Of a stretch of DNA of 64,000 nucleotides, positions 680-59,997 are shown piece after piece (the stretch's first letter is position 1; every line of letters begins with the position of its first letter). Under the pieces are notes generated by a model. The model was not told the origin of the DNA, ran no database searches, and saw nothing but the letters and a program-made list of their open reading frames with translations. The translations under genes were made by a program, and so were the position numbers. Source of the stretch: Streptomyces erythrochromogenes (GTDB lineage Bacteria; Actinomycetota; Actinomycetes; Streptomycetales; Streptomycetaceae); assembly GCF_036170895.1 (NCBI RefSeq), contig NZ_CP108036.1, positions 2,232,001 through 2,296,000 of the forward strand. Reading direction: 5' to 3'.

Positions 680-760
680 CGTGCCTCCACGTGAAGGGGC
701 CAACAGAACAGGTGTGGAGGCTCGCAGCACGTGCTAAAGGCGTGCCAAAGCCGCCCGCGG

Positions 761-1051: not shown

Positions 1052-2215
1052 ATGACGCACTCACGGGCCCACAAGTCGCCCGTCTCGTCGCGTGCGGCGA
1101 GGCTCAAGGGCAGCGGGCTGACCGAGGTGTTCATGCTGGCGCGGACCCGCGACGCCGTCGATCTGGCGGTCGGCACACCGGGCCACCCCGAGACCTCCGC
1201 GGACCTGATCGAGGAGGCGGCCCGTGCCATGCGGGCCGGCCACAACCAGTACGAGCACCCCAACGGGGACGCCCTGCTGCGGCAGCGGATCGCGGAGTCC
1301 CTCGGCACCCCCACCGACCCGGACACCGAGATCACGGTCACCGCGGGCGCGACGGAGGCCCTCTTCGTCGCGCTGCTGGCGACCGTCGATCCCGGCGACG
1401 AGGTCATCCTCCTCGACCCCGGCTTCGACCACTTCAGCGCCGCCGTCGAACTGACCGGGGCGGTACCCCGCTACGTACGGCTGCACGCGCCCGAGTGGCG
1501 CTTCGACCCCGCCGAGCTGGCCGCCGCCTTCTCCCCCCGGACCCGGGCCGTCGTCCTGAACACCCCCGGCAACCCGACCGGACGCGTGCTCACCCGCCAG
1601 GAGCTGGGCGAGATCGCCGCGTTGTGCGAGCGGTGGGACGTCACCGTGATCTCCGACGAGGTCTACCGCGCCTTCGTCTTCGACGGGCGCACCCACGTCT
1701 CCGTGGCCGACGTGCCCGGGCTGGCCGAGCGCAGCATCGTCGTCGGGTCCCTGTCCAAGAGCCACGCCGTCAGCGGATGGCGGCTGGGCTTCCTGCGCTC
1801 CGACCCCGTGCGCACGGGCGCCCTGCGCCAGGTGCACGAGCTCACCACGCTGGGCGCCGCGGTCCCCCTCCAGGTGGCCGCAGGGCGCACCGCCCACGGC
1901 GTCGACCTGACGGTCGCGGCGGCCGAGATGGCCGACCGGCGCGACCTCGCCCAGGACGTCTTCTCCCGCGCGGGCATGAAGTTCGCCCCCGCGGAGGGCG
2001 GTTGCTTCCTCTTCGCCGACATCTCCCCGCTCACCGGCGGCCGGCAGGACAGCCTCGGCTTCGTCCGCGAACTCCTGGACCGGACCGGGGTGCTGGTCGT
2101 ACCCGGAACGCCCTTCTTCGCCGACCCCGCCGACGGGGAGAGTTACGTGCGCATCGCGTTCAACCGGCAGACCGCGGTCCTGCGCGAGGCCGAGCGCCGC
2201 CTCTTGAACACCTGA
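1052..2215 (+). CDS. PLP-dependent class I/II aminotransferase
   Basis: This 387-residue protein is a fold-type I aminotransferase. Visible landmarks are the NPTG-type motif TPGNPTG with Asn174, Asp202 in SDEVYRAF (pyridine nitrogen contact), the Schiff-base lysine Lys236 in GSLSKSHAVSGWRLG and the phosphate-binding Arg244. The start has AGGAGG seven bases upstream. It opens the plus-strand gene set, 27 bases ahead of a P450 and in front of the PKS genes. The role inferred here is transamination of an alpha-keto acid made from the PKS product by the P450 and the hydroxy-acid oxidase domain downstream, giving a nonproteinogenic amino acid for the NRPS. Substrate cannot be read from the sequence; a role in ordinary amino-acid supply is the alternative. 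Confidence 0.9.
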   Translation: MTHSRAHKSPVSSRAARLKGSGLTEVFMLARTRDAVDLAVGTPGHPETSADLIEEAARAMRAGHNQYEHPNGDALLRQRIAESLGTPTDPDTEITVTAGATEALFVALLATVDPGDEVILLDPGFDHFSAAVELTGAVPRYVRLHAPEWRFDPAELAAAFSPRTRAVVLNTPGNPTGRVLTRQELGEIAALCERWDVTVISDEVYRAFVFDGRTHVSVADVPGLAERSIVVGSLSKSHAVSGWRLGFLRSDPVRTGALRQVHELTTLGAAVPLQVAAGRTAHGVDLTVAAAEMADRRDLAQDVFSRAGMKFAPAEGGCFLFADISPLTGGRQDSLGFVRELLDRTGVLVVPGTPFFADPADGESYVRIAFNRQTAVLREAERRLLNT

Positions 2216-2242
2216 CCGCCGACCACAACGGGGAGGAAAGGC

Positions 2243-3433
2243 ATGAAGCACCGCAGCGCCGGCCCGCTGGGCCCGCTTCCGGAGTTCCTCGGTCAGTACG
2301 TGGCCGGGGAGGGGCAGGTCCCCGACGGCATCGACGTCGTCCCGTTCTTCACGCCCGCCGGCGACAAGATGTGGCTGGTGTGCGACTACGCGCTGGCCCG
2401 CCGGGTCCTGACGGACAAGAGGTTCAGCCGCGCCGAGGCCCTCACGCCGCAGGCCCCCAAGCTCAACGACGCCCAACCCGTGCCGAATTCCATGATGAGC
2501 ATGGACGGAGCGGACCACTCCAGGCTGCGGCGCGTCGTGACCAAGGCGTTCACCACCGGCCGCACGGCCGCCATGGCGCCGGCCGTGGAGGAGCTGGCCG
2601 ACCGCCACCTCGACGCCCTGGCCGCGTCGGGGCCGGGCACCGACCTGATCGAGGCGCTCGTCGCACCGCTGCCACTGGCCGTCCTGTGCTCGCTGCTCGG
2701 CGTACCCCCCGAGGACGCCACCCGCTTCCGCGACTGGGTCGAGGTGCTCTTCGACATCTCCGCCAGCACCCCGCAGGAGAAGGCCCGCCGCCGCCTCGAA
2801 CTCATCGACTACATGGCCGACCTGATCGACCACAAGCGCCGCCGGCCGCAGGACGACCTGCTCACCTCCATGATCGCGGCGCACGAGCAGGGCGACCTGT
2901 CCATGGGCGAGCTGCTCACCATGGGACTCACCCTGCTGATGGCCGGCTACGAGACCGTCGTCGGGCAGCTCGGCCTGTCGGTGCACGCCCTGCTCCGCGA
3001 CCCCGCCGCGTACGGGGAGCTGTGCGGGCGGCCCGACCGGCTGGCCCCCACGGTCGAGGAACTGCTGCGGCTGACCCCCTCCACCCCGATCAGCTTCCCC
3101 CGGGTGGCGGTGGAAGCCGTACCGCTCGGCAGCGTCACCATCCAGGCCGGGGAGGGCGTCATCGTCTCCCTGCTGCACGGGAACCGGGACGGCAAGACGT
3201 TCACGGAACCCGGACTGCTGGATCCGCAGGGGCACGACGCCGCCCACCTGACGTTCGGGCACGGCGTCCACCGGTGTCTCGGCGCCCCGCTGGCCAGGCT
3301 CCAGTTGCAGATCGTGCTGGAGCGGCTGACGCGGCGGTTCCCGACCCTGCGGACGGCCTCGGGGCCTGACGCCGTGGTCTGGAAGGACGGCCTCGGCACG
3401 CGCGGGCTGGCCCGGCTGCACGTGGAGTGGTAG
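2243..3433 (+). CDS. Cytochrome P450 (putative alpha-hydroxylase of the polyketide acid)
   Basis: The 396-residue protein has all class I bacterial P450 landmarks: I-helix AGYET (Glu237-Thr238), the ExxR pair Glu273/Arg276, and the heme loop [15 protein letters not shown] with the thiolate Cys345. The start is supported by GGGGAGGAAAGG immediately upstream. It sits 27 bases after the aminotransferase and 109 bases before the PKS. By context it is the best candidate to hydroxylate C2 of the released polyketide acid or its carrier-bound form, making the substrate for the alpha-hydroxy-acid oxidase domain. Its oxygen-activating acid/alcohol pair is normal, unlike the two P450s at 32384-34865. 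A different position of oxidation, for example on the finished peptide, cannot be excluded. Confidence 0.9.
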
Positions 3434-3474
3434 CCGCCGCAAGCGGGCCGGTCGTACAGGCGGGTCGCCTCCCG

Positions 3475-3518
3475 GGTGTTCCGGGCGGCCCCCTCGAAGT
3501 GCTGCTCCCCGGAACACC
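3475..3518. terminator. Inverted repeat between P450 and PKS genes
   Basis: GGTGTTCCGGG (3475-3485) pairs perfectly with CCCGGAACACC (3508-3518) across a 22-base loop. It lies just upstream of the PKS ribosome binding site (GGAGTGAGG, 3528-3536). It may fold as an attenuator or RNA-stability element, or be a protein site. There is no T-run, so a strict terminator is uncertain. Confidence 0.4.
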
Positions 3519-3542
3519 TTTGGACTTGGAGTGAGGATCCGC

Positions 3543-6500
3543 ATGTCTGTCGAGACCACCCGCAGCGATGCCGAGTTCGTCGGGGACGCCGGGACCACCG
3601 GGGAGCCCGTCGCCGTCATCGGGCTGTCCTGCCGCTTCCCGGGGGCGGACGGGCCCGCCGAGGGCTTCGACCCGGCGTTCTTCCGTCTCGGGCCGGAGGC
3701 GGCCGCGTCGGTGGACGCGCGGCAGCGGCTCCTGCTGGAGCTGTGCTGGGAGGCCCTGGAGGGGGCCGGGATCGTACCGGCGTCGCTGCGCGGGGCCGCC
3801 GGTACGGGGCTCTTCCTCGGCGTGGACGACGAGGGCGGGGCCGAGGCCCTCGCCGGTGGGGTCGGGGCCGTGTTCGGCCTGAGCGGTGTGCGCCGGACCG
3901 TGCGCGCGGGAGCCGCGGCCGCACCGGCGGCTGTGCACCTCGCGGCCGAGAGCCTGCGCTCCGGGGAGAGCCTGATCGCCCTCGCGGGCACCACGGACGG
4001 GGCCGTCGTCGTCCTCAAGCCCCTGCCCCGGGCCGAGGCGGACGGCGACAGGATCCTCGCCGTGCTCGCCACCACGGGCCCGGCGGCCGGACCCGGAGCC
4101 GGCACCGGGACCGGGGCCGGGGCCGGGGCTTCAGCCCAGGACCGGGCCGCCGCCATGGACAAGGCGGGTCCCGCCGAGGGCGAGGAGGCCGACGGAGCGG
4201 ATGCCGCGGGCGGCGGCCCCACCGAAGGTCCGGACGCCGGGCGGCCCGCGGCGGTCCGCGAAGCGGTCGACGGTGACGGCGGCGCCCGCCGGTCGGTGGA
4301 CGACGTCGGCCGGGGCGTCGGACGGCCGGGCGAAGCCGACGGCGGCCTCACGGCCGGAGCGGCGGGTACCACCTCGGACGAGCCGGGCGCCGGCGGCGAA
4401 GCCGACGCCAGGCGCGAGGACTTCGCCGGAGGCGACGGGTTCACCCGGGCGGCCGGGGCCGCCGACGAGGGTGAGGACTTCGCCGGAGGCGACGGGTTCG
4501 CCGGGGCAGGGGCCCGGGCCGGGGCGCGGCTGGCCGCGGCGGTGCGCTCCGCTGGGGCCGGGCAGGCCGGCGTGGTTCGTGCGGTCGACGGGAACGGGGT
4601 GGTGTGGGCCGTGGAGGTCGACGGAACGCCCCGCGGCGGTGCACAGGAACGGTTCGCCGGGCGGCCGGCCGCCTTCCGGGCCGGCGTGCTGCCGTGGGTG
4701 CTCTCCGGGCACAGCGCGCAGGCCGAGCGCGCCCGGGCGGGGCAGCTCCTCGCACAGCTCGCCGAGGGCGCCGGCGATCGCGCCGACCTCGCCGCCATCG
4801 GCCACTCGCTGGCCGTCTCGCGCACCGCGTTCGCGCACCGCTCCGTCCTGCTGGCCGCCACCGGGGCGGAGTTCACGGAGGAACTGGCCGCGCTGGCCGA
4901 GGGCCGCCGCGGCCCCGGACGCGTGGGCGGCACGGCCGTGCCGCGCGACCGGACCGTCTTCGTCTTCCCCGGCCACGGCGCGCAGTGGCCCGGCATGGCC
5001 GCCGACCTGCTCGACGCCTCGGACGTCTTCCTCGCCAGTGTCCGGGCCACCGCCGAAGCGCTCGCCCCGTACGTCGACTGGTCCCTGGAGGACGTACTGC
5101 GCGGTGCGCCCGGCGCACCCGCGCCCGACCGCATCGACGTCGTCCAGCCCGCCCTGTTCGCCACCTCCCTCGGTCTCGCCGCCCTCTGGCGCTCCTTCGG
5201 CATCGAGCCGGCCGCGGTCGTCGGCCACAGCATCGGCGAGATGGCGGCGGCCGTCGTCGCGGGCGGACTGACCCTGGAGGACGGCGCCCGGACCAGCGCG
5301 CTCTGCGGCAAGGCCCAGGCCCGGCTCGCGGGACGCGGCTCCATGCTCTCGATCCTGCTGCCCCTCGACGAGGTGCGGCCGAGGATCGCCCCGTACGGCG
5401 GGCGGCTCTCCGTCGCGGGCGTCAACGGGCCGCGCTCGATCACCGTGGCCGGCGACCTCGACGCCGTCGAGCAGCTCCAGGAGGAGCTCACCGCCGAGGG
5501 CGTGCGGGTCAGGCGCGTCGCCATCGACTACGCGGCGCACTCCGCGCACATCGACGAGGTCCACGAAGAGCTGCTCACCGCGCTGGCCCCGGTCCGCCCG
5601 CGCAGGGGGAGCATCCCCTTCTACTCGGCCCTGACGGGCGCGCTGCTCGACACCCGCTCGCTGGACGCCTCGTACTGGTTCCGCAGCCTGCGCGAGACCG
5701 TGCTGTTCGAGAGCTCGGTCCGGTGCGTGGCCGACCACGACCTCTTCGTCGAGATCGGCCCGCACCCGGTGCTGACGCTGCCCCTCGAACAGACCCTGGA
5801 GGCCACCGGGTCCACCGCCGCCGTGGTCGGCTCGCTGCGGCGGGGCACGGACGGCCCGCACCGCTTCCTGTCCTCCGCGGCCGAGGCGTACGCGCACGGC
5901 GCCCCGGTGGACTGGAGCCCCGTCTTCCCCGCGGACGCCCCGGTCGTCGCCCTGCCCACGTACCCCTTCCGGCCCGGTACGTCCGCCACCGGCGACCCCT
6001 TCGGGACCGGCGGTGACCCCGAGCGCACGGCCCGGTTCCTGATGGACCTGGTGCGCTCCGAGGCGGCCCTGGTCCTCGGCCGCGGCACGGGCGCGGACAT
6101 CGACCCCGCCCGCACCTTCCAGGAGCTCGGGTTCGACTCCGCGACCGCGGTGGAACTGCGCAACCGGCTCGTCGCCGCCACCGGTCTGAAGCTGCCCACC
6201 ACCCTGCTGTTCGACCGGCCCACCCCCGAGAAGCTGGTCGCCCGGCTCGCCGAGCTCTCCGGGACGGTGGCCGCGCACCGGCCCGTCTCCCGGTCCGTCC
6301 CGCGCCGGGACCACGGCTCCGATGAGCCCGTCGCGATCGTCTCCATGGCGTGCCGCTTCCCGGGCGGGGTGGAGTCCCCCGAGGACCTGTGGCGGCTGCT
6401 CGTGGAGGAGCGCGACGCCGTCTCCGAGTTCCCCGGCAACCGCGGCTGGGCCCTGGAGACCCTCTTCGACGGGGACCCCGACCGCGCGGGCACCTCGTAC

Positions 6501-9500
6501 ACCCGCCGGGGCGGGTTCCTGCACGACGTCGACCGGTTCGACGCCGAGTTCTTCGGGATCAGCCCGCGCGAGGCCACGGCCATGGACCCGCAGCAGCGCA
6601 TGGTGCTCGAAACCGTGTGGGAGGCCGTGGAGCGCGCCGGGATCGATCCGGCGGCGCTGCGCGGCAGCGGTACCGGCGTGTACGTCGGCGCCATGGCGCA
6701 GGACTACGGTCCGCGGCTGCACGAGGCGGGCGAGGGCGTCGGCGGCTACCTGCTGACCGGCACGTACACGAGCGTGGTCTCCGGCCGCGCCTCCTACACC
6801 CTCGGTCTGGAGGGCCCGGCCGTCACCGTCGACACCGCGTGCTCGGCCTCGCTCGTGGCGCTGCACACGGCCGCCCAGGCGCTGCGGGCCGGGGAGTGCG
6901 AACTGGCCCTGGCCGGCGGTGTGACGGTGATGGCAACCCCCGGCATGTTCGTGGAGTTCAGCCGCCAGCGCGGACTGTCGGTGGACGGCCGCTGCAAGTC
7001 GTTCGCGGAGGCGGCGGACGGTACGGGCTGGGGCGAGGGCGCCGGCATGCTGCTGCTGGAGCGGCTCTCCGACGCGCGGCGCAACGGGCACGAGGTCCTC
7101 GCGGTCATCCGCGGCTCGGCCGTCAACCAGGACGGCGCCAGCAACGGGCTGAGCGCCCCCAGCGGTCCCTCCCAGGAGCGGGTCATCCGTGAGGCCCTGG
7201 CCGCCTCCGGCCTGTCGGCCGCGGACGTCGACGCCGTCGAGGCGCACGGTACGGGCACCCGGCTCGGCGACCCCATCGAGGCCCAGGCCGTCCTGGCCAC
7301 CTACGGACAGGACCGTGACCCCGGCCGCCCGCTGTTCCTGGGCTCGCTGAAGTCGAACATCGGGCACACCCAGGCCGCCGCCGGCGTGGGCGGCGTCATC
7401 AAGATGGTCATGGCGATCCGCAACGGCCTGCTGCCGCGCACCCTCCACGTGGACGCCCCGACCTCGCACGTGGACTGGTCGAGCGGAGCGGTCTCGCTGC
7501 TGACCGAGGCCGTGCCGTGGCCGGCGGGCGACCGGCCGCGCCGGGCCGGCGTCTCCTCCTTCGGTGTCAGCGGCACCAACGCCCACCTCGTCCTGGAGCA
7601 GGCCGCGGAACCGGAGGCCGGCGGAGCCGCGCCCGCCGAAGAGGTGCCCGCCGATGGCGCGCCCGTCCCCTTCCTCGTGTCCGCGAAGACCGACCAGGCA
7701 CTGCGGGCCCAGGCCGGCAGGCTCCTGGACCACCTGCGCGACAACCCCGGCGTCCCCCTCGCGGACATCGGCCGCTCCCTCGCCGTCGGCCGCGCCCACT
7801 TCGACCGGCGGGCCGCGGTGGTCGCCGGTGACCGCGCGGAGCTGGAGCAGGGCCTGCGGGCACTGGTCGAGGGCGCCACCGCCCGAGGCCTGGTCACCGG
7901 GCAGAGCCGGCCCGCGGCCCGCCCCGTGTTCGTCTTCCCGGGGCAGGGCGCGCAGTGGGTGGGCATGGCGGCCGGCCTGCTGGAGTCCTCCCCGGTGTTC
8001 GCCCGCCGGATGGCCGAGTGCGCGGCGGCGCTGGACCCGCTGGTCGACTGGTCGCTCCTGGATGTCGTCCGGGGCGCGCAGGGGGCTCCCGGCTTCGAGC
8101 GCGTGGACGTCGTACAGCCCGTCCTGTGGTCGGTGATGGTGTCCCTGGCCGCGGTGTGGCGCTCGCTGGGGGTCGAACCGGCCGCCGTGATCGGCCACTC
8201 GCAGGGCGAGATCGCGGCGGCCTGCGTGGCCGGCGTACTGAGCGTCGAGGACGCCGCCCGCGTCGTGGCGCTGCGCAGCCGCGCGCTGACCGTGCTGTCG
8301 GGCCGCGGCGGCATGATGTCCGTGGCCCAGCCGGCCGCGTGGGTGCGCGAGCGCATCGGCGCCTGGCAGGGCAGGATCTCCGTCGCCGCGGTCAACGGCC
8401 CGGCCCAGACCGTGGTCTCCGGCGACCCGGAGGCCCTGCGCGAGTTCCTGGCCCGGGCCAAGGAGGAGGGGGCGCGGGCCCGTCTCGTCGATGTGGACTA
8501 CGCCTCCCACTCGGCCCACGTGGAAGAGCTGGAGGGCGAGCTGGCGCGGCTCCTCGACGGGATCGGGGCGGGCCCGGGAGACGTACCGGTCTACTCGTCG
8601 CTGACCGGGGCGCTGCTGCTCGACGCGAGCGTGATGGGCGCCGGGTACTGGTACCAGAACCTGCGTGAGACCGTGCAGTTCGAGCAGGCGGTCGGGGAGC
8701 TCCTCGCGGCCGGGCACCACACGTTCATCGAGGTCAGCCCGCACCCGGTGCTCACCATCGGAGTGCAGGCCGCCCTCGACGAGGCGGGTGTGCGGGGCAC
8801 CGCCCTGGGTACCCTGCGCCGCGACGAGGACGAGGCCGGGCGGCTGCTGCTCGCGCTCGGCGAGGCCCACTGCCACGGCATCGGCGTCGACTGGTCCGCC
8901 GTGTTCGCCGGTACGGGCGCCCGCCGGGTCCAGCTGCCGACGTACGCCTTCCAGCGGAGCCGGTTCTGGCTCGACACCCCGGTCACGGCGGAGGACCCGT
9001 CCGGGCTGGGCCTCACGCCGGCGGAGCACCCGCTGCTGGGCGCGGTGACCAGCCTCGCCGACCGTGAGGGCGTGCTGTTCACGGGCCGTGTCTCACGCCG
9101 TACCCACCCCTGGGTCGTCGACCACGCGGTCGTCGGCACGGTCCTGCTGCCCGGCACCGCCCTCGTCGACATGGCCGTCTCCGCGGGCGACCGCTTCGGC
9201 CACGACCGGCTCCGGGAGCTGGTGCTGGAGGCTCCGCTGCTCGTCCCCGAGGAGGGCGGCGTCCACCTCCAGGTCGCGCTCGGACCGGCCGAGGAGTCGG
9301 GCACCCGGTCCGTCACCGTCCACTCCCGCCCCGAGGGCGCGGGCGACGCGGAGTGGACCCGGCACGCCTCGGGCGTACTGGCCACCGGCGAGCACCCGGT
9401 CCCCGCCGCCGCGCCGGCCTGGCCGCCGCAGGGCGCGCGGCCGGTCCCCCTCGACGACGTCTACGAGCGCCTCGCCGACCGCGGTTACGAGTACGGGCCG

Positions 9501-12500
9501 GTCTTCCAGGGCTTGGGCCGTGCCTGGCTGTCGGGCGAGGAGCGGTTCGCGGAGGTCTCCCTCACGCAGGACCAGCACGCCGACGCCTCGGCCTTCGCGA
9601 TCCACCCGGCGCTCCTCGACGCGGCCCTGCACGCGATGCTGCTCGGTGACGGCACCGAGCTGGCCATCCCGTTCTCCTTCAGCGGGGTCACCCTGCACGC
9701 CGCGGGTGCGACCGCGCTGCGCGTGCACGTGGTTCCGGTCGACGCCAACACCGCGTCGCTGACCGCGACGGACCCCGAGGGCCGGCCCGTCGTCACGATC
9801 GACTCGATCACACTGCGTCCGGCCGGTGACCTCCGTGCCGCGCAGAGCGCGAGCGCGGGGCGGCACTCCGGGCTGCACCGGCTGGTGTGGAAGCCCGTTC
9901 CGCGGGCGGCCGCGGAGACCGCGGCGGGGCTGTGGGCTGTGCTGGGGTCCGATCCGCACGGGTTGGCGGCGGCCGTCTCGGGTGACGCGTACGCCGACGT
10001 CGCCGAACTACGGACGGCTCTGAGCGACGGCGCCCAACTGCCGTCCTTCATAGCCCTGTCGGAGAGCTTCACGGAGGTGCACGGGGCGGTTCAGAGCACC
10101 CTGGCCACCCTCCAGGAACTCCTGGCCGACACCGCGCTCGACTCCACCCGGATCGTCGTCCTCACCCGCGGCGCCACCGCCCTCACCACCGACGAGGACA
10201 TCCACGACCTGCCCGCGGCCGCCCTCACCGGCCTCGTCCGCACCGCGCAGAACGAATACCCGGGCCGCATCACCCTCCTCGACATCGACAACACCGAGCA
10301 CCTCGCCGCGGCAGCCCACACCGCAGCCACCCACCCCGACACCCAGTACGCCCTCCGCGACGGCCGACTCCACACCCCCCGCCTCGAGAACACCCCCACC
10401 ACCCCGGGCACCGCGCTGGACCCGGAGGGCACGGTCCTCATCACCGGCGGCACCGGCGGACTCGGCCACATCCTCGCCCGCCACCTCGTCACCCACCACG
10501 GCGCCAAACACCTCCTCCTCACCAGCCGCACCGGCCCCAACGCACCCGGAGCCCGACAACTCCACGACGAACTCACCGCAGCCGGCGCCCACATCACCAT
10601 CACCGCCTGCGACACCTCCAACCGCCAAGCACTCAAAAACCTCCTCGACACCATCCCCACCGACCACCCCCTCACCACCGTCATCCACGCCGCAGGCACC
10701 CTCAACGACGCCACCCTCGACAACCTCACCCCCCACCACGTCACCCACGTCCTCCACCCCAAAACCGACACCGCCCACCACCTCCACCAACTCACCCAGA
10801 ACCACAACCTCACCCACTTCATCCTCTTCTCCTCCATCGCCGGACTCATCGGAAACCCCGGCCAAGCCAACTACGCCGCCGCCAACACCTACCTCGACGC
10901 ACTCGCCCACCACCGCCACCACCACAACCTCCCCGCCACCAGCCTCGCCTGGGGACTCTGGGACACGAGCACCGGCAGCATGGCCGCCCAGTTCTCGGAC
11001 GCCGACATGAAGCGGTGGGCCGACAAGGGCATCCTTCCGCTGACCCCCGAACGCGGCATGGAGCTGTTCGACGCCGCTCTCGGCGCCGGGCAACCGGTTC
11101 TGGTGCCAATCGAGTTGGACCTCCAGGCGCTGCGCGCCCCGGAGGCGACGGCGCCGGCGCTGCTGCGCACCCTGGTCCGCGCGCCGCGCCGCCGGGCCGC
11201 CGCGGCCGCCGGTTCTTCCTGGGCCGAGCGCACCGCCGCGCTCGCCCCCGGCGACCGCCGTCGGGCGGCGCTGGAACTCGTACGGGCCACGGTCGCGGCC
11301 GTCCTCGGCCTCGCGGGGCCCTCCGCCGTCAACGACAGCGGCCCGTTCATCCAGTTGGGCATGGACTCCCTGACCGGCATGGAGCTGCGGCGCAGGCTGG
11401 CCTCGGACAGCGGCATCGCCGTTCCCGCCACCGCCGTCTTCGACCACCCCACCCCCGGCGCCCTCACGGACTTCGTCGTCGCCGAGCTCGGCAAGATCGC
11501 CGGGGAGGCGGCGGCCCGGTCCGAGCGGCAGGACGCGAACGGATCCGGGGCCGGCTCCGGCGTCGGCCGGGACGACCCGATCGTGATCGTCGGCATGGCC
11601 TGCCGCTACCCGGGCGACACCCGTTCCCCCGACGACCTGTGGCGGCTCGTCGCCGACGGCACCGACGCCATCGGCCCCTTCCCCACCAACCGCGACTGGG
11701 ACGTCGACGGCCTCTACGACCCCGACCCCACCCGGGCGGGCAAGAGCTACACCCGGCACGGCGGATTCCTCTACGACGCCGACCGTTTCGACGCCGAGTT
11801 CTTCGGGGTTTCGCCGCGTGAGGCGTACGCGATCGACCCGCAGCAGCGCCTGCTCCTGGAGACCGCCTGGGAGAGCTTCGAGCACGCGGGCATCGACCCG
11901 GCCACCCTGCGCGGCAGCCGGACGGGCGTGTTCGTCGGCACCATGTACGACGACTACGCTTCCCGGCTGTCCTCCGTCCCGGTCGAGTACGAGGGCTACC
12001 TGAGCACGGGCAGTGCCGGCAGCGTCGCCTCCGGGCGGTTGTCCTACACCTTCGGGCTGGAGGGCCCGGCCATCACCGTCGACACGGCCTGCTCCTCCTC
12101 GCTCGTGGCCCTGCACCTGGCCGCCCAGGCCCTGCGCCAGGGCGAGTGCAGCCTGGCCGTGGCGGGCGGTGCCACCGTGATGGCCACTCCGCGGCCCTTC
12201 GTGGAGTTCAGCCGACAGCGCGGCCTCGCGCCCGACGGCCGGGTGAAGTCGTTCTCCGCCTCGGCGGACGGGACGACCTGGAGCGAGGGTGTGGGCGTAC
12301 TGCTCCTGGAGCGGCTCTCCGACGCCCGCCGCAACGGACACCCCGTACTGGCCGTGGTCCGCGGATCCGCCGTCAACCAGGACGGCGCCAGCAACGGCCT
12401 CACCGCACCCAACGGCCCCTCCCAGGAACGAGTGATCCGCGAAGCCCTCGCCGCCTCCGGCCTGTCGGCCGCCGACGTCGACGCCGTCGAGGCCCACGGC

Positions 12501-16988: not shown

Positions 16989-17006
16989 GGAAGACACCCA
17001 CCCCCC

Positions 17007-17037
17007 GCCCGGGTCCGGACCCGTTCCGGACCCGGGC
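17007..17037. terminator. Strong hairpin between the two PKS genes
   Basis: GCCCGGGTCCGGA (17007-17019) and its exact reverse complement (17025-17037) form a 13-bp stem with a five-base loop, 19 bases after the PKS stop codon. It could partly terminate transcription or protect the upstream mRNA. No T-run follows. Confidence 0.6.
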
Positions 17038-17090
17038 CGAGCAACCAGACCCACACCCAGACCCCGACAGGGAAGTACGGAGAGAACAGG

Positions 17091-20000
17091 ATGGCTTCCA
17101 CAACCCAGCAGCAGGTCGTCGAGGCGTTGCGGGCCGCGCTGAAGGAGAACGAGCGGCTCAAGGCCGACCACACCCGCATCAGGGAACGCGAGCACGAGCC
17201 GATCGCGATCGTGGGGATGGCCTGCCGCTACCCGGGTGGCGTCCGTTCCCCCCAGGACCTGTGGCGGCTGACCACCGACGAGGTGGACGCCGTCGGCCCG
17301 TTCCCCGCCGACCGGGGCTGGGACCTGGCGGAGCTGTACGACCCCGACCCGGACCGGCCGCACACCTCGTACGCGCGGGAAGGCGGATTCCTCTACGGGG
17401 CGGCGCAGTTCGACGCCGAGTTCTTCGGCGTCTCGCCGCGCGAGGCCCACAGCATCGACCCGCAGCAGCGCCTGCTGCTGGAGACGGCGTGGGAGGCGTT
17501 CGAGCACGCGGGCATCGACCCGGCCACCCTGCGCGGCAGCCGGACGGGCGTGTTCGTCGGCACCATGTACGCCGACTACATGAACCGGTTCTCCCCCGCC
17601 CCGGAGGAGTACGAGGGCTTCCTGAGCGTCGGCGGCGCCGGCAGCGTGGCCTCCGGGCGGCTGTCCTACACCTTCGGGCTGGAGGGCCCGGCCATCACCG
17701 TCGACACGGCCTGCTCCTCCTCGCTCGTGGCCCTGCACCTGGCGTGCGCCTCGCTGCGCAGCGGCGAGTCCTCGATGGCCCTGGTCGGCGGCGCCACGGT
17801 GATGGCGACGCCCATGCCGTTCGTGGAGTTCAGCCGGCAGCGCGGACTCGCCGCGGACGGCCGCTGCAAGGCGTTCTCCTCCTCCGCGGACGGCACCGGC
17901 TGGGCCGAGGGCGCCGGTCTGCTGCTGGTCGAACGGCTCTCCGACGCCCGCCGCAACGGACACCCCGTACTGGCGGTGGTGCGCGGCTCGGCCGTCAACC
18001 AGGACGGTGCGAGCAACGGGCTGACCGCGCCCAGCGGCCCCGCGCAGGAGCAGCTCATCCGCCGCGCCCTGGCCGCGGCCGGGCTGACGCCCGCCGACGT
18101 GGACGCGGTGGAGGCGCACGGGACGGGCACCTCTCTGGGCGACCCGATCGAGGCGCAGGCGCTGCTGGCCACGTACGGCAGCGGGCGCCCGGCCGACCGG
18201 CCGCTGCACCTGGGCTCCCTGAAGTCGAACATCGGGCACACCCAGGCCGCCGCCGGGGTCGGCGGTGTCATCAAGATGACGATGGCGCTGCGCGAGGGGC
18301 TGCTGCCCCGGACCCTGCACGTGGACGAGGCCACCCCGCACGTGGACTGGTCGGCCGGCGCCGTCTCCCTGCTGACCGAGGCGGTCCCGTGGCCCGGGCA
18401 GGGCGAGCGGCCGCGCCGGGCCGCGGTGTCCTCCTTCGGCATCAGCGGTACCAACGCGCACGTCATCCTGGAGCAGGCGCCGGAGCCGCAGGCGGCGCCG
18501 GAGCCGGCCCCGGCCGGGCGCCCGGCCGCGCCGGCGCCCGTTCCGGTCGTGCTGTCGGCGGCCGGGGAGCCCGCGCTGCGGGCGCAGGCCGACCGGCTGT
18601 ACAAGCACCTGACCGAGGCGGACGGCGACGGGCTCGCGGACGTCGGCTTCTCCCTCGCCACCACCCGCGGGCACCTGCCGCACCGGGCGGTGCTGCTCCC
18701 CGAGGACCGCGACGAACTGCTCGACGGGCTGCGGGCGCTGGCCGACGGCGTGCCCGGCGCGGACGTGGTCCGGGCGACGGCGGCCGAGGGCCGCACCGCG
18801 TTCCTCTTCGCCGGCCAGGGCGCCCAGCGGGCCCGGATGGGCCAGGAGCTGTACGAGGCGTTCCCCGTGTACGCGGCCGCGTTCGACGAGGTGTGCGCCG
18901 CTCTGGACCCGCACCTGGAGCGGCCGCTGCGGGACGTGGTCCTCGCGGCCGAGGACAGCCCCGAGGGCGCCCTGCTGCACCGGACCGGCTACACGCAGCC
19001 GGCGGTCTTCGCCTTCGAGGTGGCGCTCTTCCGGCTGCTGGAGTCCTGGGGGATCCGGCCCGACGCCGTCCTCGGGCACTCCGTCGGCGCGCTCGCGGCC
19101 GTGCACACGGCCGGGGCGCTGTCGCTGGCGGACGCGGCCGAACTGGCCGCCGTACGCGGCCGGATCATGGAGCGGCTGCCGTCGGGCGGGGCGATGGTGG
19201 CCCTGCGCGCCTCCGAGGCGGAGGCGGCGGCCCTGCTCGCGGGCCACGAGGAGCTGATCTCTCTCGGCGCCTTGAACGGCCCGGCCGCCACGGTGCTCTC
19301 GGGCGACCGCGACGCCCTGGCCGGCGTGGTCGCGGGCTTCGAGGCGGCCGGCGGGAAGGCCACCTGGCTGCGCGTCAGCCACGCCTTCCACTCGCCGCTG
19401 ATGGCACCGGCCCTGGAGGAGCTGCGGTCCGTCGTCGCGCGGCTGGTCTTCAAGGAACCGCAGCTCGCCTTCGTCTCCGACCTGACCGGCCGCCCCGTGG
19501 GCGCGGACGAGCTCGCGGACCCGGAGTACTGGGTCCGGCACGCACGGCACGCCGTCCGCTTCCAGGACGGCGTGGCCGCCCTCGCCGAACTGGGCTGCGC
19601 CCGCTTCGTCGAGGTGGGGCCGGGCACCGACCTGACCTCGATGGCCGCGGAGTGCCTGGAGGACGCGGGCCGGGGGCGCCCGGCCGGCCACACGCTGATC
19701 CCGTCGCTGCGGCGGCGCCTGCCGGAGGTGACCGCACTGCTCACGGCGGTTGCGCGGCTGCACGCCTGCGGTGGTGACGTGGACTGGGCCGCCCTGTTCG
19801 CTGACCGCGGGGCCCGCCGGGTGGAGCTGCCCACGTACGCCTTCCAACACCGCCCGTACTGGATCGACCGGCCGGCGGCGGCCGGGGACGTGCGGTCGGC
19901 CGGGCTGGTCGCGGTCGACCACCCGATGCTGAGCGCCTCCGTGGAACTGCCTGATTCCGAGGGTCTGTTGCTGACCGGGCGGCTTTCCCTGGCCCGCCAC

Positions 20001-23000
20001 CCGTGGCTGGCCGGCCACCGTGTGGGCGGCCGGGTGCTGCTGCCCGGCACCGGCCTGCTCGACCTGGTGGCGCGCGCCGCCGGGGAGGCGGGCTGCGCCC
20101 TGGTCGAGGAACTCGTCCTGGAGGCGCCGCTGGTGGTGCCGGAGGAGGGCGAAGTCCGGCTGCGGGTGTCCGTGGCCGCCCCGGACGGCACGGACGGCTC
20201 CGGCCGCCGGGCCGTCTCCGTCCACTCCCGGCCCGAGGGCGACGCCGACGGGCAGGGCTGGTCCCGCAACGCCCACGGCACGGTCCTGCCGGACGGCGAC
20301 GGCTCCGGGCCGGCGCCGGAGCCTGCCGCCGAAGCCGGCGGGGACTGGGCCGGGGTGTGGCCGCCGCGCGGCGCCGAGCCGGTCCCCGGCCCGGTCGAGG
20401 ACCTCTACTGCGTCCTCGGCGCCAAGGGCCTCGGTTACGGCCCGGCCTTCCGCGGGGTACGGGCCGTCTGGCGGCGCGGGCAGGAGGTCTTCGCCGAGGT
20501 GGCGCTCCCCGCCGCGGCCGGGCCGGCGGCGGACGGCTACGGGCTGCACCCGGCGCTGCTCGACGCGGCCCTGCACCCCATCGCGCTCGGCGGCCTGGTC
20601 GACGGGGCCGACGGCGACGACGGGCGCACGTTCCTGCCGTACGCCTGGTCCGGCGTCCGCACGCACGGCGGGAGCGGCCCGCGCCTGCGGGTCCGGCTCG
20701 TGCCGGCCGGGGCGAACGCGGTGGGCATCGACGTCGCGGACGACTCGGGCCGGGCGGTGGCCTCGATCGGCTCGCTGGTGCTGCGCCCGCTCCCGGCGGG
20801 CGCCCTGGAGGCTCCGGCCGGACCGGGCGACGGCCTGCTGTGGCCGGTGTGGGAGGAGCTGGCCGAGCTGCCCGCCGCACCCGCCACGCACCGCTGGACG
20901 CTGCTCGGCGCGTACGAGCACGAGCACGAACTGGGCCTCGGCGGGGCCCTGTCCGACACCGGCGACCTGCTGGCGGCGCTGTCCGCCGGGGCGGACGCTC
21001 CCGCGCTGCTCCTGCTGCCCTGCCCGCTCCCCGCGGGCGGCGGCACGCCGGGCGGCGGCGCCGCGGCCGTGCGTACGGCCCTGCACCGGGTCCTCGACAC
21101 GGTCAGGCTGCTGGTCACGGACGAGCGGCTGGCCGGGACCCGGCTGGCGGTCCTCACCCGGGGCGCCGTCACCCTGGGCGGCGAGCAGCAGCCCGGCGAG
21201 CTGTCCCACCGCGCCGTATGGGGCCTGCTGCGCTCCGCGCAGGCCGAGCACCCCGACCGGTTCGCGGTGCTCGACGAGGACGGCACCCCCGCCTCCCGGC
21301 GGGCCGTCGCGACGGCGCTGGCCACCGGGGAGCCGCAGCTCGCACTGCGCGGCGGCGCCGCCTTCCGTCCCCTGCTCGCCACGGACCATGCGGAGCACCT
21401 GCTGGTCCCGCCCGCCGACACCCCGCACTGGCACCTCGACTACGTGGCCAAGGGGACCTTCGCGAACCTGGCACTGAAGCCGTGGCCGGAGGCGGCCGCC
21501 CCGCTGGAGGAGGGGCAGGTGCGGGTCCGGATGCGGGTCGCGGGCCTGAACTTCCGTGACGTCCTGCTCTCCCTCGGGGTGATCCCGGCGTCCGTGGACG
21601 GGCACGCGGGCGGTTCGGGGCAGGGCGGCGAGGGCGCCGGCACGGTCCTCGAAGTGGGTCCCGGTGTCACCGACCTGCAGCCCGGAGACCGGGTGATGGG
21701 CCTGTTCTACGGCATCGGTCCGACGTCGGTCACCGACCGCCGGTTCGTCTCCCGGATCCCGGAGGGCTGGTCCTTCCGGCAGGCGGCCGCGGTCCCCGTC
21801 ACCTATCTGACGGCCTACTACGGACTGGTGGACCTGGCGGACCTGCGCGCGGGCGAGTCGGTGCTCGTGCACGCGGGCGCCGGCGGCGTCGGTACGGCGG
21901 CGATCCAGATCGCGCGCCACCTCGGCGCCGAGGTGTACTCCACCGCGAGCCCCGCCAAGTGGGAGGCGCTGCGCGGCGCCGGGGTCGCGGACGGGCACAT
22001 CGCCTCCTCCCGCACCCTGGACTTCGAGCCGTCCTTCCTCGCCGCGACCGGGGGCCGGGGCGTCGACGTGGTGCTCAACTCCCTCGCCGGGGACTTCGCG
22101 GACGCCTCGCTGCGCCTGCTGCCGCGCGGCGGCCGGTTCCTGGAGATGGGCAAGACCGACCGGCGCGAGCCCGCCGAGGTGGCGGCCGCGCACCCGGGGG
22201 TCGTGTACCGGACGTACGACGTGCGCGACCCGGGTCCGGACCGGATCCGGGAGATCTTCGCCGAGCTCCTCGCCCTGTTCGAGCGGGGTGCGCTCCAGGC
22301 CCCGCCGGTGGCGGCCTGGGACCTGCGCCGGGCGCCGGACGCCTTCCGCCACCTGAGCGAGGCCCGGCACATCGGCAAGGTCGTGCTGGACCTGGCCGAC
22401 GAGGACGAGCGCTGGGACACCTCCCGGGCCGTCCTGGTCACCGGCGGTCTCGGCTGGCTGGGCCGGCTCGCCGCCCGCCACCTGGTGGCGCGGCACGGGA
22501 TACGGCAGCTGGTCCTGATGGGCCGCGGGCTGCCCGGCGAGGACGCCGCCCGGGACGTCGCCGCACTGCGGGAGCTGGGCGCGGACGTCCGTACGGTGGC
22601 CTGCGACGCGGCCGACCGGGACGCGCTGGCCGCCGCCCTGGGCGAGCTGGCCGGCGACGGGGTCCGCGTCGGCGGGGTCGTGCACGCGGCGGGCGTCCTG
22701 GACGACGGCCTGCTGACCTCGCTGACCGCCGGGAGCCTGGAGCGGACCCTGCGTCCCAAGGTGGACGCGGCGCTCAACCTGCACGAGCTCACCGAGCCGC
22801 TCGGCCTGGACGCGTTCGTCGCCTTCTCCTCCCTCGCGGGCACCCTCAGCGCCCCGGGCCAGGCCGGGTACGCGGCCGGCAACGCCTTCCTCGACGGGCT
22901 GATGGAGCAGCGGCGTTCGGTGGGCCGGCCGGGGGTCTCCGTCGTGTGGGGCCTGTGGGAGGGCGCCGGCGGCATGGGCGCCGGCCTGACCGGCGCGGAC

Positions 23001-23750
23001 GTCGCCCGCATGGCGCGGGTGGGCGTGGCCCCGATCACCTCCGGGCAGGGGCTCGACCTGCTGGACGCCGCGGTGCGCCGCGACCGTCCGGTGGCGGTGG
23101 CCGCGCGCTGGGACCTCGACGGGCTGCGGGCCGCGGTCGGGCAGGGCGCGGCGGTGCCGCCGCTGCTGCGGGGGCTGCTGCCGGCGGCGCCGCCGGTGTC
23201 CGTGGCGGCGAGGGCCGCCGCGCAGGCGCCGGCGCCGGCTCCGGCTCCGGCCGAGGGGGCCTCGCCGACCGGGGACCGGCTGCTGGACTGCGTGCTCCAC
23301 GAGGTCGCGGCCGTGCTGGGGCACGGCTCCGGTGCGGCGGTGGACCGGGACGGTGCCTTCGACCGGCTCGGCTTCGACTCGCTGACCGCGGTGGAGCTGC
23401 GCAACCGGCTGGCGGCGGCGACGGGCGTCCGGCTGCCCGCCACGTTCATCTACGACTGGCCGACCCCGGCCGAGCTGGTGGTCCACCTGCGGGAGCAACT
23501 CCCGCAGCCGGCCGGGGACGTCGCCCAGGCCCCCGCCCCGGCCCCGGCCCCGGCCCCGGGCCCCGCTGCCCCGGTCTCCGGCGACGACGCCGGTGTCACC
23601 GTGGCGCTGCTCGCGGACATCGCCCGGCTGGAGGCCGCGGTGGCCGACCGGCCCCTGAGCGAGGCGCAGGGCGCCGTCGTGAGCGAGCGGCTGCGCGAGC
23701 TGCTGACCGAACTGGGTTCTATGAAGGAGGATCACTCCGCGTGGGCATGA
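17091..23750 (+). CDS. Modular type I PKS, extension module 3 (KS-AT-DH-ER-KR-ACP), no thioesterase
   Basis: A 2219-residue single-module PKS. It begins with a coiled docking segment ([18 protein letters not shown]), then KS (Cys208 in DTACSSS), AT with GHSVG and HAFH (malonyl type), DH (HxxxGxxxxP, His976), ER ([15 protein letters not shown], about 1590), KR (GGLGWLG; FSSLAG; LDD motif in HAAGVLDDG) and ACP ([10 protein letters not shown], about 2096). All catalytic motifs look intact, so the beta carbon should be fully reduced. The C-terminus is a short helical tail, not a thioesterase; release must be in trans. The start has GGAG eight bases upstream. The final codons overlap the start of the next gene, so the two are translationally coupled. 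With the preceding PKS the expected chain is a 6-methyl-4,6-dienoyl group extended by the starter. Confidence 0.95.
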
Positions 23751-25744
23751 CCAACACCCCGACGGCCGCCCCGGTTTCACCGGCCGGTGCCGCCGACCCG
23801 TCCCGGTGGCTGCGCACCTATCACCCCCGAGCCTCGGCGCCCGCCCGCCTGGTGTGCTTCCCGCACGCGGGCGGGGCCGCGAACGCCTTCGTGGCGCTGT
23901 CGGCCGCACTGCCCGAGGACGTCGAGCTGCTCGCCGTCCAGTACCCCGGCCGCCAGGACCGGCGCGGCGAACCCTGCGCGCAGGACCTCTCCGAGCTGGC
24001 CGCGGGCGTGGCCGGGGCGCTCGCCGCGTCGCCCGACGACCGGCCGCTGTTCCTGCTGGGCCACAGCATGGGGGCCCTCGTGGCCTTCGAGACGGCCCGG
24101 CTGCTGGAGGAACGCGGCGGCGCGGCCCGGTTGTTCGTGTCGGCGGCCCGGCCTCCGGCTCAGGACTGGGAGGAGCCCGACCTGGCCCTCGTCGGCGACG
24201 GGGAGCTGGTCGCCGGGCTGCGGCGGCTCGGGGGCATTCCCGAACCGCTGCTGGCCGATCCGGAGATCGCCGCCGAGATCCTGCGGCTGCTGCGCGCCGA
24301 CCATCGCGCGCTGCTGCGCCACCGCTGCGCGCGGGAGCACGCCGTGGCGGCCCCCGTCACGGTGCTCCTGGCCACGGCGGACCCGAAGAACTCCCCGTCC
24401 CAGATGGCCGACTGGGCCCGCCACACCACCCGCGGGCACGAGGTCGTGACGCTGTCCGGCGGGCACTTCGCGCTCCTGGAGCGGCCCGCGGAGAGCGCGC
24501 TGCCGGTCACGGAGCGGATCCGCGGGGACCTGGCCCGGGCCGAGGCGTCCGGGGCGTCCGGGGCGTCCGGGGCGCCGGGTCCCGAGCCCCTGGCCGACCT
24601 GGTGCGGGAGCTCATGCTGGAGGGTCTCGCGGGCCGGACCCCGCGGCTGACGACCGACCTGACCGCCCTGGAGGCCGCGGCCGGCCGGGTGATGGCCCCG
24701 GAGGCCTTCGCGTACGTGTCGGGCACGGCCGGGTCCGGGGCGACGGGCCGGGCGAACAGGGCGGCCTTCGACCGCCTTCGGCTGGTGCCGCGGATGCTGC
24801 GCGGCACGCGCCGTGCCGACACCTCGGTGACGCTGTTCGGGCAGCGGCTGCCCGTCCCCGTCCTGCTGGCTCCGCTGGCCGCGCAGCAAGTGGCCCACCC
24901 GGAGGGCGAGTCGGCCACGGCGCGGGCCGCTGCGGCGACCGGCGTGCCGATGGTGCTGTCGACGTTCGCCTCGCGCACGCTGGAGGAGGTGGCCGGGGCG
25001 GCGGGCGACCACCCGCGCTGGTTCCAGCTGTACCTGCCCTCGGACCGGGCGGTGGGCGAGTCGCTGGTGCGGCGCGCCGAGGCGAGCGGCTACGGCGCCA
25101 TCGTCGTCACCGTGGACGCCACCCACCTCGGCTTCCGTCCGGCGGAACTCGACAGCGGGTACTCGCCGTTCCTGCGCGGGACGGGCATCGCCAACTTCAC
25201 GAGCGATCCCGCCTTCCGGGCCGGTCTGCCGGCGGACGCGGACGCCACCCAGACCGTCCTGCGGTGGGCGCAGATCTCCACCGACCCCACCCTGACCTGG
25301 GAGGATCTGACCCGGCTGCGCGGGCTGACCCGGCTGCCGCTGCTCGTGAAGGGGATCCTGCACCCGGACGACGCCCGGCTGGCGCTGGAGCACGGCGCGG
25401 ACGGCGTGGTCGTCTCCACGCACGGCGGCCGCCAGCTCGACGGCAGCGTGTCCGCCCTGGACGCGCTGCCCGCGGTGCGCGCGGCCGTCGGCCCGGGCGT
25501 ACCGGTGCTGATGGACTCCGGGGTCCGCACCGGCAGCGACGTCCTCAAGGCGCTGGCCCTGGGCGCGGACGCCGTCCTGTACGGCCGGCCGTACGTGTAC
25601 GGGCTCGGCCTCGACGGCGGGCGCGGCGTCGAGCACGTCCTGCGCTGCCTGCTCACCGACCTCGGGCTGGCCCTGGCCCTGACCGGCTGCGCGTCCCTCG
25701 CGGACGTCGGCCCGCACGTCCTCGCGAACGGAGATCTGCGATGA
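23741..25744 (+). CDS. Fusion: type II thioesterase + FMN-dependent alpha-hydroxy-acid oxidase
   Basis: A 667-residue protein with two domains. Residues about 25-265 are a type II thioesterase: FPHAGG, nucleophile Ser109 in GHSMG, His242 in SGGHF. After a Gly/Ala/Ser linker (about 268-282), residues about 300-665 match the lactate oxidase / hydroxymandelate oxidase family: [16 protein letters not shown], the FMN-contacting Lys537 in LLVKGI, catalytic His561 in [10 protein letters not shown], and the phosphate loop [10 protein letters not shown]...[11 protein letters not shown] at 23741 is chosen because AAGGAGG is ten bases upstream; the ATG at 23747 is too far from it. It overlaps the PKS stop. 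Inferred job: release or edit the polyketide and oxidise the 2-hydroxy acid to the 2-keto acid. The joint activity in one chain is unusual. Confidence 0.88.
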
Positions 25745-26538
25745 AGCGACCCTACGGACCCGGCGCCGACCCGACGGGCTGGCTGCGCCAGTACCACCGG
25801 CCGCCGTTGGAGGGGCCGACGCTGGTCGTCTTCCCCCACGCGGGCGGCTCGGCGACGGGCTACTACACCCTGTCGCAGGCCCTGTGCGGCGCCGCCGAGG
25901 TGCTCAACGTGCAGTACCCGGGCCGCCAGGACCGGCTCGGCGAGCGCTGCATCGACGACATCGGGGAGATGGCGGACCGGGTCGTCGAGGCGCTCCTCCC
26001 CCGCGCGGGCCGCCCGCTCGTGCTGTTCGGGCACAGCCTGGGCTCGATCGTCGCGTACGAGGTGGCCCTGCGGCTGGAGAGCCTGCACCCGGGCCGCGCA
26101 CCGATCGGCGTGATCGTCTCGGGCCGGCCGGCGGCCGCGATCCACCTGAGCCGCGGCCTGTCCCTGCTGGAGGACGAGGCCCTCGCCTCGTCGATCTCCG
26201 ACCTGGCCGGCACCCCGCCGGAACTGCTGGCCGACAAGGACCTGATGGCGGCCGTACTGCCCTCCCTGCGCGCGGACTTCAAGGCTGCGGAGAGCTACCG
26301 CGGCGCGGCGGGCACCCGCGTCTCCTGCCCGCTGTACGCCTACTCGGGGGCGCAGGACCACAACGTGCCGCGCGAGGGCCTGCTGCGGTGGAGCGAGCAC
26401 ACCTCGGCGGAGTTCACGGTCCGCTTCTTCGAGGGCGGCCACTTCTACCTCCAGTCCCAGGAACCGGAGGTGGCCCGCGCCCTCGCCTCCGACCTCCACA
26501 CCCTCACCAGAACCGCCCTCCTGACCCCCACCCACTGA
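25741..26538 (+). CDS. Type II thioesterase (GrsT/TycF-like alpha/beta hydrolase)
   Basis: A 265-residue stand-alone thioesterase with FPHAGG (31-36), Ser99 in GHSLGS and a terminal GGHFYL histidine. The start codon overlaps the upstream stop as ATGA. Such proteins hydrolyse wrong or stalled acyl groups from carrier proteins, and some release beta-hydroxylated amino acids from dedicated A-PCP proteins. Here it could serve PKS release, housekeeping, or unloading of the C-A-PCP protein at 27908-31072. It is the last plus-strand gene and converges on a P450 across a terminator. Confidence 0.92.
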   Translation: MKRPYGPGADPTGWLRQYHRPPLEGPTLVVFPHAGGSATGYYTLSQALCGAAEVLNVQYPGRQDRLGERCIDDIGEMADRVVEALLPRAGRPLVLFGHSLGSIVAYEVALRLESLHPGRAPIGVIVSGRPAAAIHLSRGLSLLEDEALASSISDLAGTPPELLADKDLMAAVLPSLRADFKAAESYRGAAGTRVSCPLYAYSGAQDHNVPREGLLRWSEHTSAEFTVRFFEGGHFYLQSQEPEVARALASDLHTLTRTALLTPTH

Positions 26539-27907: not shown

Positions 27908-31068
<3,161 letters not shown>

Positions 31069-31072
<4 letters not shown>

Positions 31073-34867: not shown

Positions 34868-52432
<17,565 letters not shown>

Positions 52433-52433
52433 T

Positions 52434-59051
<6,618 letters not shown>

Positions 59052-59153
59052 GAAGACCGGGATCTCATGGGTTTGATTTCTCAATTAATCGCAGCCGGAC
59101 CGTCGGCGCGGCAACCCGAAAAAGCTGCCATACAGGCACTCCCCATCGGGAGC

Positions 59154-59942: not shown

Positions 59943-59997
59943 GACCATTCCCCTCTGCGTTGTGTCGGGCGGAAGCGGGAAGCACGAAGAGGGAAAC

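Follow-up and report, generated by a model that had tools for sequence, protein, structure and literature searches.

The stretch analysed here, which we call the window, is a 64,000-nucleotide piece of the 8.6 Mb genome of Streptomyces erythrochromogenes (contig NZ_CP108036.1; G000:C1:2232001-2296000 in our numbering). Between positions 1052 and 26538, its forward strand carries a run of genes for an aminotransferase, a cytochrome P450 (P450a), two polyketide synthase (PKS) proteins, a fusion of a type II thioesterase (TE) with an FMN-dependent alpha-hydroxy-acid oxidase (HAO), and a second TE. An earlier sequence-only reading had placed an aminotransferase, a P450, a three-module PKS without TE and an oxidase domain in one set, and all of them, together with a PKS loading unit, do lie in this single run. 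The oxidase domain is present as described there; the frame at 23806-26538 in the mechanically compiled list of open reading frames is, however, the wrong one up to about position 25740. The genes that actually cover this span are TE-HAO (23747-25744), in which the oxidase is the C-terminal half, and a free-standing TE (TE_b, 25741-26538). PKS2, TE-HAO and TE_b are chained through ATGA overlaps, the fusion gene overlapping PKS2 at one end and TE_b at the other. All features are collected in the table.

Table. Features of the window, the forward-strand run first (window coordinates)
Feature	Position	Strand	Basis
Class I/II pyridoxal phosphate (PLP) aminotransferase	1052..2215	+	PF00155 E=6.5e-53; PLP lysine motif SLSK
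Cytochrome P450a	2243..3433	+	PF00067; heme and I-helix motifs
PKS1	3531..16988	+	loading unit and modules 1 and 2
PKS1 loading unit: truncated KS remnant-AT0-ACP	3531..6245 (end approximate)	+	domain and motif reading
PKS module 1: KS-AT(YASH, methylmalonyl type)-DH-KR-ACP	6327..11450 (ends approximate)	+	domains, motifs
PKS module 2: KS-AT(HAFH, malonyl type)-DH-KR-ACP	11574..16823 (ends approximate)	+	domains, motifs
PKS2 (module 3): N-terminal docking domain, KS-AT(HAFH)-DH-ER-KR-ACP	17091..23750	+	domains, motifs
TE-HAO: type II TE (Ser107, His240) and FMN alpha-hydroxy-acid oxidase (~24587-25741)	23747..25744	+	PF00975, PF01070
TE_b, free-standing type II TE	25741..26538	+	PF00975 E=5.4e-48; ATG overlaps TE-HAO stop
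LmbU-family transcriptional regulator	1..730 (gene start in window, 3' end beyond its upstream edge)	-	NF038070 230.8 bits, cut-off 125; at L002 about 18868-19731
Cytochrome P450b, tailoring	26607..27848	-	PF00067
Single NRPS module N3: C (without HHxxxDG)-A (DALFLGLVL)-T	27908..31072	-	domain reading
FAD monooxygenase, tailoring	31069..32277	-	PF01494
Cytochrome P450c, tailoring	32384..33586	-	PF00067
Cytochrome P450d, tailoring	33633..34865	-	P450 family matches
NRPS2: C-A3-T-E-C-A4-MT-T-C-A5-T-E-C-A6-T-TE	34868..52444	-	A3/A5 DVFSVAAYA, A4 DAYWWGGTF, A6 DIGIMAGIG
NRPS1: A1-T-E-C-A2(dead)-T	52434..59084	-	A1 DAWTVAAVC; A2 motifs broken
TE_c, type II TE	59154..59948	-	PF00975 E=3.2e-45
ABC exporter: membrane subunit 60330-61127, ATPase 61124-62137	60330..62137	-	domain reading

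By domain reading, neither PKS1 nor PKS2 contains a TE domain, and the two type II TEs lie directly 3' of these genes. PKS1 opens (~3588-4610) with a ketosynthase remnant, in which the active-site Cys is missing along with most of the domain, and with a long low-complexity stretch of Gly, Ala and Glu ahead of the loading acyltransferase AT0. The latter retains GHSIGE, while LCGKAQ takes the place of the LRSRAL found in the methylmalonyl-type AT1. Loading acyltransferases that take a monoacyl-CoA are marked by a missing Arg at this position, and the starter group R probably derives from such a monoacyl-CoA. For the extending acyltransferases, YASH marks the methylmalonyl type and HAFH the malonyl type. 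These motifs, together with the order of the reductive sets (DH-KR in module 1, DH-KR in module 2, DH-ER-KR in module 3), support a predicted chain R-CH=C(CH3)-CH=CH-CH2-CH2-CO-S-ACP. The skeleton R-CH=C(CH3)-CH=CH-CH2-CH2-COOH that the sequence-only reading had derived is thus borne out, with R still generic. At the AT0 position in question a related cassette (genome G136) has Trp, and the first acyltransferase of IlaE, the ilamycin PKS, is also reported to lack its Ser and Arg (PMC5577134).

The oxidase half of TE-HAO belongs to the FMN alpha-hydroxy-acid oxidases by fold and by its Tyr, Tyr, Asp, Arg, Lys, His and Arg, residues with established catalytic roles in this family. The corresponding motifs (Tyr, Tyr, Asp/Arg, Lys, His/Arg) are kept in 23 aligned fusions, and the Ser and His motifs of the TE half are intact. 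Among solved sequences, the closest single-domain relative of the oxidase half is lactate 2-monooxygenase (302 bits), followed by hydroxyacid oxidase 1 (268), glycolate oxidase (~254), 4-hydroxymandelate oxidase (240) and lactate oxidase (~205); the score table is headed by two lactate oxidase chains of double length, solely because two copies are summed. An AlphaFold model of the fusion based on the 23-sequence alignment (mean pLDDT 80, pTM 0.56) has its closest folds in lactate monooxygenase structures, at 40-41% identity, with 4-hydroxymandelate oxidase also matched. The window oxidase is like lactate 2-monooxygenase, hydroxyacid oxidase 1, 4-hydroxymandelate oxidase and lactate oxidase in fold and active-site residues, but differs from all of them in being fused to a type II TE and in adjoining a PKS.

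TE and HAO domains occur together in 80 of the best 120 proteins listed, the window's own included, and the genera named in the list include, besides Streptomyces, Kitasatospora, Actinomadura, Nocardia, Micromonospora, Actinoplanes, Actinophytocola and Amycolatopsis; on a plasmid of S. cynarae, TE and HAO are separate, adjoining genes. Since a class-wide search of 394 genomes at 1e-140 matched the S. erythrochromogenes genome alone, the spread of the fusion beyond the genus is drawn solely from this protein list. A contig scan with the fusion alignment returned at least 80 loci that matched in the oxidase part only, at no more than 57% identity in the best segment, and was set aside. No TE-HAO route was met in the open-licence literature, as judged mostly from titles and abstract openings.

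To follow the inheritance of the genes, one set of 295 Streptomyces genomes was searched with the TE-HAO, P450a and aminotransferase queries. The TE-HAO query matched 168 of the 295 at 1e-100, nearly all of the matches listed being generic oxidases of at most 57% identity; a close HAO (at least 63%) is found in only seven genomes, five times as a full-length fusion and twice as HAO only. The P450a family is present in nine genomes and the aminotransferase family in 11 (both at 1e-105), and all seven genomes with a close HAO have all three. The chance of such co-occurrence, with the S. erythrochromogenes genome excluded, is P=3e-11 for HAO and P450 together and P=2e-10 for HAO and aminotransferase together, values that are not strict probabilities because the genomes are related. 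Two of the nine P450a-family genomes, G013 and G123, have no close HAO, and four genomes (G036, G048, G055 and G143) carry the aminotransferase family, at 55-61% identity, without the P450a family at 1e-105 and without a close HAO. The P450a-family member of G123 (L143-L144) is 60% identical, has neither a close HAO nor the aminotransferase with it, and lies 4 kb from a weak PKS match.

The succession aminotransferase-P450-PKS-PKS-TE-HAO can be followed along a single contig in G136 and in G234, and it spans two contigs in G042 and in G131. In G073, one contig carries KtzI-KtzT-aminotransferase-P450 and a second one PKS2-TE-HAO-TE-P450-N3-P450, with PKS1 not shown, while G247 has KtzI-KtzT-aminotransferase-P450-PKS-HAO with a shorter PKS that lacks a loading unit and with no TE_a match (TE_a being the TE of the fusion) adjoining. 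Because aminotransferase, P450 and HAO recur beside PKS genes at 57-72% identity in five more distant genomes, and because the cassette is almost unchanged in G042, the grouping cannot be put down to chance. As a control, 23 of the 30 loci returned hold generic HAOs (54-57% identity), and none of these 23 has a TE, PKS, P450a or aminotransferase match within 3-4 kb; weak NRPS (nonribosomal peptide synthetase) matches occur at one such locus and a 35% MMPL match at three. We also paired contigs across the protein lists, using the best 120 rows of each, so that all counts are lower bounds: at least 20 of 78 fusion contigs recur in the aminotransferase or P450 list and at least ten in both, and among fusion contigs of 30 kb or more at least 19 of 47 recur in one of the two, while shifting the pairing by 1-11 left 0 or 1 match.

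The closest precedent for such a set of genes comes from the ilamycin family. Genome G013 served, by its gene content, as a stand-in for the ilamycin cluster (reference KY173348), so that P450a was compared with the G013 enzyme and not with the IlaD sequence itself. The G013 locus has a P450, a giant PKS, a TE, an aminotransferase, a NO synthase, a Trp prenyltransferase, further P450s and an NRPS with seven A domains, which by predicted function is the content of the ilamycin/rufomycin cluster. P450a is 56% identical to the first P450 of this locus over 396 aa, compared with 30-32% for the other P450s of the window, and the two fall into one 23-row clade with support of 100/100 in a tree for which the program warned of long outgroup branches. 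TE_a is 43% identical to the G013 TE. The window thus has a multi-module type I PKS without TE, a P450 of IlaD type (judged on the G013 enzyme) adjoining it, and type II TEs in the operon (TE_a and TE_b), as in the ilamycin route.

According to the ilamycin study, deletion of ilaE (the PKS) or ilaD (the P450) abolished production, which was restored by supplying the free amino acid and not by free 4-hexenoic acid, and oxidation on the ACP was proposed (PMC5577134). The failure of free 4-hexenoic acid to restore production leads us to favour ACP-bound oxidation. Both systems share the TE-less PKS, the same P450 clade, the type II TE, a class I/II aminotransferase and a free amino acid that is passed to an NRPS. 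They differ in that ilamycin has a single giant PKS, a C6 chain, an aminotransferase of another branch and no HAO named in amination, whereas in the window the PKS is divided over two proteins, the predicted chain is a methyl-branched diene, and TE and HAO are fused. This suggests, at the level of gene content, chemistry of the same kind with another second half, in which an oxidase is fused to the releasing TE; the two oxidation steps may then be divided between P450 and HAO. The sequence-only reading had likened the logic to routes proposed for the Bmt residue of cyclosporin, which is made by a fungal PKS plus an aminotransferase. That system also turns a polyketide into an alpha-amino acid for an NRPS, but it is fungal and uses other enzymes. 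On the strength of the P450 clade, the 56% identity and the ilamycin genetics, we dropped cyclosporin and take ilamycin/rufomycin as the closest model.

The amino acid would be used by the NRPS genes on the opposite strand. Just upstream of the window lie two genes that we take to be an ornithine N-monooxygenase of KtzI type (L002:16527-17891, PF13434) and a piperazate synthase of KtzT type (L002:18120-18767, PF04299), so that both genes expected of a piperazate-peptide cluster are present. An argB-like acetylglutamate kinase gene is found at L002:14781-15815, and the same trio of kinase, KtzI-type and KtzT-type genes also stands beside the cassette of G042. The gene for the LmbU-family regulator separates the piperazate genes from that for the aminotransferase. 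Piperazate genes adjoin the cassette here and in three of six relatives, and a quite different NRPS adjoins it in two others. In these two, G136 (L118-L120, L131) and G131 (L121-L122), the neighbouring NRPS is 30-41% identical and has codes such as DILQLGLIW and DLPKVGEVG; the stretches examined gave no KtzT or KtzI match.

Within the window, A3 and A5 have the code DVFSVAAYA in the later alignments (a first rough alignment gave DVFVVAAYA), presumably a piperazate code, and together with the dead A2 they group at 100/100 with two A domains from G247, a genome in which the cluster has KtzI and KtzT relatives. A3 and A5 thus look piperazate-type. We assume that the A4 code DAYWWGGTF stands for Val, with a methyltransferase domain in the same module. 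A2 of NRPS1 (~52695-54125, reverse strand) is a dead piperazate-type domain with broken A3, A4, A5, A8 and A10 motifs, and is dead in G042 too. The code of the orphan module N3, DALFLGLVL, resembles the DALFAGAVA domains of G013, and this module may load the dead A2 position in trans. A1 (DAWTVAAVC) resembles the GrsA Phe code and the seventh G013 domain, DVWTLAAVG; in the A-domain tree it is the sister of A6. The PKS-derived residue would be taken by A1 or A6, the data favouring neither.

Judging from the piperazate genes and the two piperazate-type A domains, the product is probably a cyclic hexapeptide with piperazate that resembles piperazimycin but is distinct from it. Piperazimycin is described as a cyclic hexadepsipeptide with piperazates and 2-amino-8-methyl-4,6-nonadienoic or decadienoic acid (PMC5702503), and so shares with the predicted product a 2-amino-4,6-diene residue beside piperazates; its methyl group is at C8, compared with C6 in the predicted window residue, and its alpha-methylserine and hydroxyacetic acid do not appear to be suggested by the window NRPS codes. 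The likeness to piperazimycin that had been drawn beforehand therefore holds for the piperazate genes and the piperazate-type A domains, while the cluster is probably not that of piperazimycin itself. No piperazimycin gene cluster was met in the literature searched, judged mostly without full texts. There are also cyclic hexapeptides that contain piperazate but no polyketide residue (PMC6022709).

Based on these observations, we consider it likely that 1052-26538 is a cassette that turns a polyketide into an alpha-amino acid and feeds it to the neighbouring NRPS. PKS1 and PKS2 would extend a monoacyl-CoA starter by one methylmalonyl and two malonyl units to R-CH=C(CH3)-CH=CH-CH2-CH2-CO-S-ACP, and P450a would hydroxylate C2 of the chain while it is held on the last ACP. 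The TE half of TE-HAO would then release the 2-hydroxy acid, the FMN oxidase half would convert it with O2 to the 2-keto acid, and the aminotransferase would turn this into a 2-amino-6-methyl-4,6-dienoic acid, to be loaded by A1 or A6 of the hexapeptide NRPS beside the piperazates. What is read directly from the DNA is the gene content, the domain order, the catalytic motifs, the joint inheritance of the P450, aminotransferase and HAO genes, and the common clade of P450a and the ilamycin-type P450. This co-inheritance and clade, along with the ilamycin knock-outs and feeding, strongly support the amination logic of the sequence-only reading.

Several points weigh against this route. Lactate 2-monooxygenase, the nearest solved relative of the oxidase half, decarboxylates its substrate. 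The aminotransferase is not IlaH-like, being 30% identical over 210 aa to that of G013, a genome with no match to the window's aminotransferase family at 1e-105, and neither A1 nor A6 groups with an ilamycin-type A domain. There is no HAO match in 40 kb of the ilamycin-type locus of G013, a generic HAO lying elsewhere in that genome. In ilamycin, the P450 is proposed to reach the keto stage by itself, and deletion of ilaH cut the titre only to two thirds (PMC5577134). Because no HAO was found in these 40 kb of G013 and the ilamycin proposal needs only the P450, an HAO is not strictly required for a route of this kind. The same building block could hence arise in another order, P450a alone giving the keto group on the ACP, possibly followed by ACP-bound transamination, with TE-HAO rescuing leaked hydroxy acid or editing the line. 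In favour of this order, the ilamycin source names no HAO among the amination genes next to a P450 of this kind (PMC5577134), and the G013 locus, whose P450 is 56% identical, gave no HAO match in 40 kb. A mere rescue function fits poorly with the close HAO in seven of nine P450a-family genomes, and the catalytic residues kept in all 23 aligned fusions argue that the oxidase step is needed; we regard this order as rather unlikely.

Two further readings would take polyketide and amination apart. The oxidase might serve a phenylglycine or hydroxyphenylglycine route, oxidising mandelate to phenylglyoxylate ahead of transamination, and the PKS would have another task; 4-hydroxymandelate oxidases are indeed related to the HAO domain (240 bits, and also among the fold matches), and in known routes they are paired with an aminotransferase. 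Yet the HAO domain matches lactate 2-monooxygenase (302 bits) and hydroxyacid oxidase 1 (268 bits) with higher scores and is inherited together with the PKS cassette, and a TIGR01263 search of the S. erythrochromogenes genome found no 4-hydroxymandelate synthase in the cluster: the one gene over cut-off for HPPD or 4-hydroxymandelate synthase lies 2.9 Mb away, and a second match, 0.6 Mb away, is weak, partial and below cut-off (39.5 bits). We have rejected this role because no such synthase lies close to the cluster, and believe it to be very improbable. The polyketide might alternatively form an acyl side chain of the peptide or cap its N-terminus, with aminotransferase and oxidase making an unrelated residue, and PKS-type acyl side chains are indeed described for the related depsipeptides aurantimycin and polyoxypeptin. 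NRPS1, however, has no starter C domain and opens with A1-T-E, and because an A domain comes first the polyketide is unlikely to be a simple N-acyl cap; the place of P450a in the ilamycin-type clade and the quite different NRPS beside the cassette in G136 and G131 also speak against it, so that we disfavour this role as improbable, if a shade less so than the phenylglycine one.

A route from polyketide to amino acid is already known in the ilamycin family; what would be new here is the oxidase fused to the releasing TE. We lean slightly towards the wider view that this is a portable, stepwise actinomycete cassette, plugged into different NRPSs, in which a bifunctional TE-oxidase frees and oxidises a C2-hydroxylated chain, and which supplies long unsaturated side chains and may also account for the dienoic amino acids of piperazimycin. 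If true, this would give a general and readable rule for bacterial long-chain alpha-amino acids, namely to hydroxylate on the carrier, to release and oxidise in a fused enzyme, and to transaminate. It would also point to a cyclic hexapeptide, provide enzymes for the laboratory synthesis of unsaturated amino acids, and allow tests of where dienoic amino acids of the piperazimycin type come from.

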